NCBI GenBank assembly: GCA_017621795.1
Contig: JAGASJ010000038.1
Coordinates: 1 to 40,351, forward strand
Length of the DNA: 40,351 nucleotides
Source of the DNA: Oscillospiraceae bacterium
GTDB lineage: Bacteria > Bacillota > Clostridia > Oscillospirales > Oscillospiraceae
Direction of reading: 5' to 3'
Shown here: piece after piece, positions 20,771 through 27,268 of the stretch
Layout: every line of letters begins with the position of its first letter
How positions within the stretch are numbered: position 1 is the stretch's first letter
The notes under the pieces: model-generated
What the model saw: only the letters and a program-made list of their open reading frames with translations
Database searches by the model: none
What the model was told of the DNA's origin: nothing
Position numbers and translations under genes: made by a program

Positions 20771-21937
20771 GTGCGTCGGCTGATTGATTACACCAAAAAA
20801 ACCATACGCCAGGCAGACCTGATCCTTTTGGTGCTGTGTCTTGCCGCCACTGCCTTCGGCACACTGGTCATTGCCAGTGCCACCAACGCCCAGGGCAACA
20901 CCCGTTTCCTTGCGGTGCAGATCGTGGCTGCCTTGCTGGGCGTGGGAATGTTTTTTGTGGTCTCCGCGGTGGATATTGACTTTATTACGGAGCACCGCAA
21001 CTGGCTGGTTGCCATCAACTGCTTTATGCTTCTGCTGCTGATCCCCTTCGGCGTGACCCCCGCCGGCTCCGACAACCGAAGCTGGCTGGAGCTTCCCTTT
21101 ATGCCGGTGCAGATCCAGCCTGCGGAAATTTGTAAGATCTTTTTCGTGCCTATTTTGGCATCGGTGATGGCCACTTATCAAAATAACCCCTCCCGCCCCA
21201 AGGCGGTGATGCACCTGCTGTTTCACACCGGCCTGATCGTGGGGCTGAATATGGTCATTTCCAAGGACCTGGGCGTGTCTCTGATTTTCGTCTCCGTATT
21301 TTTGGGGATGGCGTTTGCAGGCGGTGTCAGCCTTTTGTGGTTTGCCGCTACTGCAGGTGGCATTGCGGCGCTGGCACCTATTATATGGAGCTTTTTGGAG
21401 GACTACCAAAAGCGTCGTATTATGATCGTGTTTGATTCCTCCATCGATCCAAACGGCATCAACGAGCGCTATCACACGGTGCGCAGTCTGAAATCCCTGA
21501 TGGGCGGGGGTATGACCGGGCAAGGTCTTTTCAACGGCACCCGTACCCAAATTCAGGGCGCCCTGCCTGCACAGCACACCGACTATATCTTCTCTGCCAT
21601 CGGCGAGGAGCTGGGCTTTATCGGCTGTCTTGTTACAGTGCTGCTGATCGCCGCCATTATCGCCCGCTGTATTTGGGTAGGTACCCGGAGTAACGACTAT
21701 AAGCGCCGCCTGATCTGCTTCGGCGTTGCCGCGGCACTGATGTTTCAGCTTTGTATCAATGTGGGTATGTGTATCGGCATTGTGCCGGTTATCGGTCTGA
21801 CCCTGCCCTTTATCAGCTACGGTGGATCTTCCCTGATCTCGCTGTATGCCATGGTGGGGCTTGTGGCAGGTGTGTTTGCCCGTCCCTCGCCGACCAGCCA
21901 GGAGCGATATATCCGCCCGCCCTATAAGAGATTGTAA
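20771..21937 (+). CDS. SEDS-family peptidoglycan polymerase (RodA/FtsW/SpoVE)
   Basis: A 388-residue membrane protein with about ten helices. SEDS proteins polymerise lipid II into glycan strands with a class B penicillin-binding protein. Diagnostic segments are LELPFMPVQIQPAEICKI (usually QPSE; Ala here), SKDLGVSLIF, the extracellular GMTGQGLFNGTRTQIQGALPAQHTDYIFSAIGEELGF and the signature FISYGGSSL. Start is GTG at 20771, four bases after AGGAGGG. It is not next to mreB or ftsZ, so its role in elongation, division or sporulation is open. Confidence 0.92.
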   Translation: MRRLIDYTKKTIRQADLILLVLCLAATAFGTLVIASATNAQGNTRFLAVQIVAALLGVGMFFVVSAVDIDFITEHRNWLVAINCFMLLLLIPFGVTPAGSDNRSWLELPFMPVQIQPAEICKIFFVPILASVMATYQNNPSRPKAVMHLLFHTGLIVGLNMVISKDLGVSLIFVSVFLGMAFAGGVSLLWFAATAGGIAALAPIIWSFLEDYQKRRIMIVFDSSIDPNGINERYHTVRSLKSLMGGGMTGQGLFNGTRTQIQGALPAQHTDYIFSAIGEELGFIGCLVTVLLIAAIIARCIWVGTRSNDYKRRLICFGVAAALMFQLCINVGMCIGIVPVIGLTLPFISYGGSSLISLYAMVGLVAGVFARPSPTSQERYIRPPYKRL

Positions 21938-21942
21938 ACCCA

Positions 21943-21967
21943 AAGGTGCAGGCGGTAGCCTGCACCT
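21943..21967 (+). terminator. Terminator-type hairpin, left duplicate
   Basis: AAGGTGCAGGC/GCCTGCACCT around GGTA, six bases after the RodA/FtsW stop. An identical 25-bp copy is at 22209-22233, on the other side of the 241-bp element. Confidence 0.7.
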
Positions 21968-22208
21968 CAGAGTGTCAAAGAACCCCCAAACCGTCAAAAT
22001 ATAAATCTAAATATTTTGAATCATATCGTAGGGGACGGGTCTCCCGTCCTGAAAGTATTTTTTTAAAAAGGCTTGCTCCGCAAGATATTTTGACTTACTG
22101 CGCATCGCTCCCCACTCGAGTATCTATATACACATCGGGGTCGCGTTGCTTGTCTTTGGTGCTTCTTTGACCTCTGCAGTCTGTCAAAAAATACTTTTTT
22201 GACAGACC
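21968..22208. mobile_element. MITE-like non-coding element, copy 1
   Basis: Starts CAGAGTGTCAAAGAA and contains the near-complement TTCTTTGACCTCTG (22164-22177), followed by a perfect palindrome GTCTGTCAAAAAA-TAC-TTTTTTGACAGAC (22179-22207). It includes a GTAGGGGACGGG hairpin (22028-22049). It matches 26992-27233 almost throughout, except one ~25-base patch (about 22049-22072). No plausible protein is encoded. Both sides carry the same 25-bp hairpin, which reads as a target-site duplication. Confidence 0.75.
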
Positions 22209-22233
22209 AAGGTGCAGGCGGTAGCCTGCACCT
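22209..22233 (+). terminator. Terminator-type hairpin, right duplicate
   Basis: Exact copy of 21943-21967. It now lies 24 bases before the start codon of the DUF2079 gene. Confidence 0.7.
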
Positions 22234-26953: not shown

Positions 26954-26959
26954 AAAATA

Positions 26960-26991
26960 AAACAGGAGATACCGTCAGGTATCTCCTGTTT
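26960..26991 (+). terminator. Terminator hairpin, left duplicate
   Basis: AAACAGGAGATACC, GTCA, GGTATCTCCTGTTT: a perfect 14-bp stem after the lipoprotein stop. Repeated with one loop change at 27237-27268. Confidence 0.85.
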
Positions 26992-27233
26992 CAGAGTGTC
27001 AAAGAACCCCCAAACCGTCAAAATATAAATCTAAATATTTTGAATTATATCGTAGGGGACGGGTCTCCCGTCCCGCAAACAATTTTCAAAAAAGGGCTTG
27101 CTCCGCAAGATATTTTGACTTACTGCGCATCGCTCCCCACTCGAGTATCTATATACACATCGGGGTCGCGTTGCTTGTCTTTGGTGCTTCTTTGACCTCT
27201 GCAGTCTGTCAAAAAATACTTTTTTGACAGACT
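26992..27233. mobile_element. MITE-like non-coding element, copy 2
   Basis: Begins CAGAGTGTCAAAGAA and ends TTTTTTGACAGACT, as copy 1 does. It has nearly the same length (242 bp) and differs mainly in one patch (about 27073-27096). The flanking hairpins are unrelated in sequence to those of copy 1 but are again a left-right duplicate. Confidence 0.75.
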
Positions 27234-27236
27234 AAA

Positions 27237-27268
27237 AAACAGGAGATACCATCAGGTATCTCCTGTTT
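27237..27268 (-). terminator. Terminator hairpin of the tRNA operon, right duplicate
   Basis: Same 14-bp stem as 26960-26991 with an ATCA loop. On the minus strand it is followed by TTTTTTAG and lies one base after the CCA end of tRNA-Lys. Confidence 0.85.

Follow-up and report, generated by a model that had tools for sequence, protein, structure and literature searches.

The window, that is, the whole 40,351-nucleotide stretch of DNA analysed here (Oscillospiraceae bacterium assembly GCA_017621795.1, contig JAGASJ010000038.1, positions 1 to 40,351), contains a 241-bp element situated between two identical copies of a 25-bp hairpin (Table 1), placed 3′ of the stop codon (21935–21937) of an ORF that by eye resembles ftsW/rodA. 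An earlier note on this DNA described a non-coding element flanked by identical terminator-type hairpins at this place, and the observation is confirmed with exact coordinates. Both hairpins fold as stem-loops, with 10 and 11 pairs, a 4-nt loop, and folding energies as DNA of -13.1 and -13.8 kcal/mol, and none of 200 shuffled sequences was as good for either of them. The boundary of the element is uncertain by 1 nt, because the T at 21967 closes the duplication and also supplies the T of the element end TCAG. No ORF of at least 80 aa lies wholly within the 241 bp, in agreement with its description as non-coding. The hairpin at the right end of the element adjoins an internal stretch that matches the left end in inverted orientation, and the arrangement looks like two joined element ends.

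The label terminator-type holds only in part: the position after a stop codon agrees with it, but the hairpin is missed by a strict terminator scan of the window because its tail is poor in T. A search of the whole window against Rfam at gathering scores returned two tRNAs and nothing else. A second copy of the element, together with its hairpins (26959–27268), lies immediately upstream of genes for tRNA-Lys and tRNA-Gln that are encoded on the opposite strand.

Table 1. Coordinates of the two element copies and their hairpins in the window.
Feature	Coordinates	Strand	Remarks
Left duplicated hairpin, 25 bp	21943–21967	.	AAGGTGCAGGCGGTAGCCTGCACCT
Left terminal repeat	21967–21980	+	TCAGAGTGTCAAAG; T at 21967 common to the hairpin
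MITE copy, 241 bp	21968–22208	+	TCAGAGTGTCAAAG end at left
Right-end hairpin of the element	22179–22207	.	Two facing terminal-repeat copies (GTCTGTCAAAAAA...TTTTTTGACAGAC)
Right duplicated hairpin, 25 bp	22209–22233	.	AAGGTGCAGGCGGTAGCCTGCACCT again
Left hairpin, second copy, 33 bp	26959–26991	.	
Second MITE copy	26992–27232	+	Upstream of a tRNA-Lys gene on the other strand
Right hairpin, second copy	27236–27268	.	One loop mismatch relative to the left hairpin

Hairpin duplication within a MITE family

The element belongs to a MITE family of a genus within the Oscillospiraceae. The genome that carries the window (G000; 2.03 Mb in 105 contigs, 89% complete) has 25 matches to it, and whole or partial copies are shown at 20 places, several of them halves at contig ends. 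Matches are present in 23 of the 61 genomes of the genus sample, some to a short internal stretch only, and the 13 named stretches with an exact 5′ end correspond to Oscillospiraceae MAGs from the hindgut (colon, rectum or cecum) of roe deer, sheep, goat and yak. The term MITE-like, as applied in the earlier note, is apt: the element is short, it is repeated in its own genome, the transposase gene is absent, its terminal repeats (TCAGnnTGTCAAA) are common to the genus IS elements L056, L057 and L074, and target duplication is accompanied by three single-hairpin unoccupied sites among the 12 compared. Its length is 239–269 bp in 51 of the 54 copies having duplicates, with left ends that are mostly TCAGAGTGTCAAAG and right ends that are mostly TTTGACAGACTGA or TTTGACAAGCTGA.

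The duplication was counted in 58 distinct copies with both recognisable ends and flanks, leaving out those whose left flank is shorter than 70 bp, those at contig ends, and those with a right end that departs from the end pattern. A copy's own left and right flanks align at a score of at least 30 in 51 of these 58, compared with 3 of 3306 pairs mixed between copies, so the flanking repeats are not due to chance. Three copies from the related genome G116 (L179, L180 and L182), chosen after their duplicates were seen, were added later to give 61, and with these included the hairpin is duplicated in 54 of the 61 copies (89%), a figure that is valid only for copies with an intact right end. A hairpin adjoins the left end in 60 of the 61 copies and the right end in 59, whereas the control frequencies for the left and right tests are 157 and 234 of 4000 at non-ORF positions, and 40 and 62 of 4000 at random positions. 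T-rich tails follow the right-hand hairpin in 40 of 59 copies.

In most cut-and-paste elements the cuts in the two target strands are separated by a short distance that does not vary. In this family the duplications range from 22 to 42 bp (mean 29.9) and the hairpins from 22 to 49 bp; the two lengths are correlated (r = 0.75, 0 of 10,000 permutations, 54 copies), and the centre of the duplication is within 1 nt of the hairpin dyad in 52 of the 54, such that the hairpin seems to set both the length and the position of the duplication, as in structure-guided integration. The target hairpins differ in sequence and length between copies, and the elements themselves are closely similar. As read from the flanks, the element occupies hairpins having no common sequence and the duplication spans the hairpin from one foot to the other; its size seems to depend on the hairpin and not on a fixed distance. 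The transposase might instead read some other feature of gene ends, such as supercoiling or a terminator protein, and cut with a long variable stagger, the hairpin being a passenger. The location of the sites at gene ends would agree with this, as would the fact that a folded state is invisible in sequence, but a passenger would not give a duplication that tracks hairpin length and is centred on the dyad, and we consider this explanation improbable.

Seven of the 61 copies are without the hairpin duplicate. Four of them (L075, L095, L105 and L135) have unlike hairpins on the two sides and are possible scars of recombination between elements; the MITE copy at L074 has no duplicate of its own and adjoins an IS; L111 is the inner member of a tandem pair of elements, with the duplicated hairpin on the outer sides of the pair; and no hairpin was found at the right end of L035. 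A recheck using the left-end pattern gave 101 distinct matches followed by 330 bp or more of sequence; 58 of these were already among the 61. The other 43 include many chance matches in genes and, by eye, about two dozen real left ends with an altered right end, only about seven of which have a hairpin copy downstream. A copy of the left flank occurs within 420 bp in six of the 43 (L015, L017, L026, L176, L183 and L184), the L026 match being an inner repeat of a copy already counted, and in two others (L079 and L111) it is further off, beyond a second element. The duplicate is thus missing more often in copies with an altered right end; joint loss of the right end and the adjoining hairpin would have this effect and may have happened in these copies. 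The earlier description of the duplicate as a complete stem-loop applies to 54 of the 61 intact-end copies, but not to the seven exceptions or to most copies with altered right ends.

Unoccupied sites in a related genome

Twelve sites were compared between G000 and G116 (which matches genome RGIG4196), six occupied in the former (L001, L002, L005, L007, L008 and L015) and six in the latter (L178–L183). At the site corresponding to that in the window (L001), G116 lacks the element and has a single hairpin with a changed loop between genes that are 89% and 84% identical to those flanking the window copy; the two matches overlap by 25 bp, which is the hairpin. The earlier note had proposed to test whether an empty site has one hairpin, and this is the case here. 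The site of the G116 copy L180 has one 33-bp hairpin in G000, and that of L179 has one hairpin of diverged sequence, so that three of the 12 (L001, L179 and L180) are clean single-hairpin sites. One hairpin with a rearranged or one-sided flank is present at the L005 site in G116 and at one flank of L181 in G000. L183 corresponds to L017, a site filled in both genomes; at the L182 site G000 has IS1182 ends; and for the remaining five (L002, L007, L008, L015 and L178) a flank is missing or is on another contig. Two hairpins without an element were found at none of the 12 sites, five of them with incomplete flanks. Two more distant relatives are also without the element at this position, and we draw no conclusion from either: the genes of G029 have no hairpin between them, and G016 has one that is clear by eye. 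At the L005 site in G116 (L210), an unrelated stretch of ~400 bp with the motif TGTCATTGCGAGCC is situated just after the single hairpin.

These comparisons bear on two ways in which paired hairpins could arise without any duplication of the target. In one, the element landed between tandem hairpins (double terminators) that were already present, and the two hairpins do differ in 26 of the 54 pairs, as old tandem copies might. This is very improbable given that the unoccupied sites have one hairpin (cleanly at L001 and L180, diverged at L179, and also at L005 and at one side of L181) and that none of the compared sites, including the five with incomplete flanks, has an empty pair. In the other, the hairpins are part of the element and travel with it, for which the presence of a hairpin at both ends in nearly all 61 copies could be cited. 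Yet hairpin sequence and length (22–49 bp) vary between closely similar elements and a homologous single hairpin stays behind at the unoccupied site, making this an extremely improbable account. Both pre-existing tandem hairpins and element-borne hairpins are contradicted by the readable single-hairpin sites.

Parts of PMC5678879 and PMC4923244 report that IS1272, of the same family as the IS elements considered below, deletes or replaces its target stem-loop, raising the prospect that here too insertion eliminates the hairpin, those seen beside the element having some other origin. In IS1272-type insertion the target hairpin is lost and nothing is duplicated; in contrast, two copies of one hairpin are kept in 54 of the 61 copies here and the unoccupied sites have one. 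Replacement of this type is contradicted for this group, for which we regard it as highly improbable, and may apply to some of the copies without a duplicate.

IS1182-family elements at duplicated hairpins

The earlier note pointed to the IS1182 family as a source of the transposase, citing its long, variable target duplications; long direct repeats are listed for this family by ISfinder. A model of the IS1182 family matches 17 of 60 genomes, five of them above the curated cut-off. A family search of the window's own assembly found no IS1182 transposase; the assembly has only broken IS ends. Two IS elements of the genus, L056 and L057, have the TCAGnnTGTCAAA ends, and L057 lies between two exact copies of a 23-bp hairpin. 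MITE and IS1182 partner are found together in one genome, G116, where locus L074 has the order hairpin, MITE, IS1182 element with a 474-aa transposase, and the same hairpin again. The two MITE ends there resemble the two different ends of the IS. The L074 and L057 transposases score 379.7 and 388.6 bits, respectively, against NF033551 (cut-off 270), and the former matches PF13751, PF05598 and PF01609 (DDE_Tnp_1_6, DUF772 and DDE_Tnp_1). In the window's own genome, contigs C61 and C20 terminate in two IS1182 ends much like those of L074 (L226 1678–1868 and L227 1–171), both of them next to the same hairpin; in G116 the MITE copy L182 occupies the homologous place, at a different hairpin, and from the synteny we infer that C61 and C20 hold the two ends of one IS1182 copy. 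The proposed link is thus borne out by the common ends, the transposases in relatives, the L074 tandem within one hairpin and the IS1182 ends in the own genome, and the MITE is apparently moved by an IS1182-type transposase.

The ends of 15 IS1182-type elements were examined (including L058, L059, L071 and L072), the sample from outside the genus being six of the 382 plasmid records that had a match. A duplicated hairpin, as read, is present in seven: L055 (one mismatch), L056 (three differences in 17), L057 and L074 of the genus, and L235 (Peribacillus), L236 (Bacillus subtilis) and L238 (Macrococcoides) on Bacillota plasmids. All seven lie inside duplicates of about 17–37 bp, as read from the flanks, and resemble the MITE in the form of their ends, differing from it in being autonomous and transposase-bearing. 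L237 consists of tandem IS copies with ambiguous flanks, and L054 has two different hairpins, as does L064 (753 bp), an element outside the 15. Two alphaproteobacterial elements, L239 (Sphingobium) and L240 (Thioclava), share the family name and have 25–27% transposase identity but no duplicated hairpin was seen at the ends taken. With the Bacillota plasmid elements having duplicated hairpins and these two lacking them, the hairpin-duplicating habit appears to be a trait of part of the IS1182 family. Short non-autonomous IS1182-family derivatives are also described in part of PMC3852290, namely the ISMac2-partner MITEs of Methanosarcina acetivorans (160 and 169 bp); these differ in that the description mentions neither feature, and the words "hairpin" and "terminator" are absent from the text of the paper.

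A proposed model for integration and possible loop remodelling

The reading we favour, at a probability of roughly 85%, is that the MITE is mobilised in trans by an IS1182-family DDE transposase using the TCAGnnTGTCAAA ends, and that the whole target hairpin is duplicated on insertion; the interpretation given in the earlier note is supported to this extent. The two joints would be one hairpin apart, and gap repair would leave each side of the element with a complete hairpin. The hairpin and the cut position are observed only as they stand after the insertion event, and from these we infer that the DNA may have been folded, as an extruded hairpin or a cruciform, at the time of attack or cleavage. 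Insertion would leave a hairpin on each side, which may explain its tolerance at gene ends.

The differences between paired hairpins are concentrated in the loops: in ungapped pairs, 22 of 213 bases differ in the loop and 10 of 1196 in the stem. Two of the 54 pairs match more closely when one hairpin copy is inverted, their loops being the inverse of each other exactly at L117 (0 versus 5 mismatches) and nearly at L119 (1 versus 3). Outside the 54, the same holds at the L017/L183 site filled in both G000 and G116 (5 versus 7 and 4 versus 6, respectively) and at the IS1182 site of the own genome (L226/L227; 1 versus 4). Selection on the stem explains the enrichment of differences in the loops, and accounts less easily for the inversions. 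Template switching at quasi-palindromes would yield such inversions, and a tentative and somewhat unlikely extension of the model is that insertion itself remodels the hairpin, repair with template switching between two single-stranded hairpins within the transposition complex giving rise to both loop changes and inversions in one copy. On this reading, integration would generate mutations in terminator loops in addition to duplicating terminators. As a test of age, the hairpins differ in 13 of 27 pairs from copies with a nearest neighbour of 96% identity or more, and in 13 of the 27 other pairs; these equal counts are only suggestive, nearest-copy identity being a poor clock.

Hairpin targeting by IS1182 relatives has precedents in the published passages considered here. 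Palindromes are known targets of some IS1182 members (Siguier 2015, cited in parts of PMC5678879 and PMC4923244), and the staphylococcal IS1272 and TnSha1 resemble the present case in having an IS1182-family transposase and hairpin targets of varied sequence, several of them terminators (same sources); IS1272 differs in that the hairpin is removed or replaced with no target duplication, whereas here the whole hairpin is duplicated. According to part of PMC12056078 (2025), IS1182-related transposases act with or without target duplication or deletion and may recognise sequence or DNA structure. Wan et al. 2017 (PMC5678879), in the part considered, present duplication as a possible pathway b beside the hairpin-replacing path proposed for IS1272, and the sequences described here fit pathway b.

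An IS1182-type MITE whose integration duplicates its target hairpin represents an integration outcome that is little documented in the openly accessible literature, and the surprise is a moderate one because palindrome targeting by some members of the family was already known. Many cases are now supplied of a pathway drawn as a possibility in the part of PMC5678879 considered, in a family of which one member, IS1272, is reported there to do the opposite and delete the hairpin. Duplication length varies with the stem-loop of the target and so offers a natural read-out of structure-guided integration, and the number and regularity of the cases make the mechanism directly testable. The findings also suggest how the element could multiply at gene ends, with a hairpin remaining on both sides.
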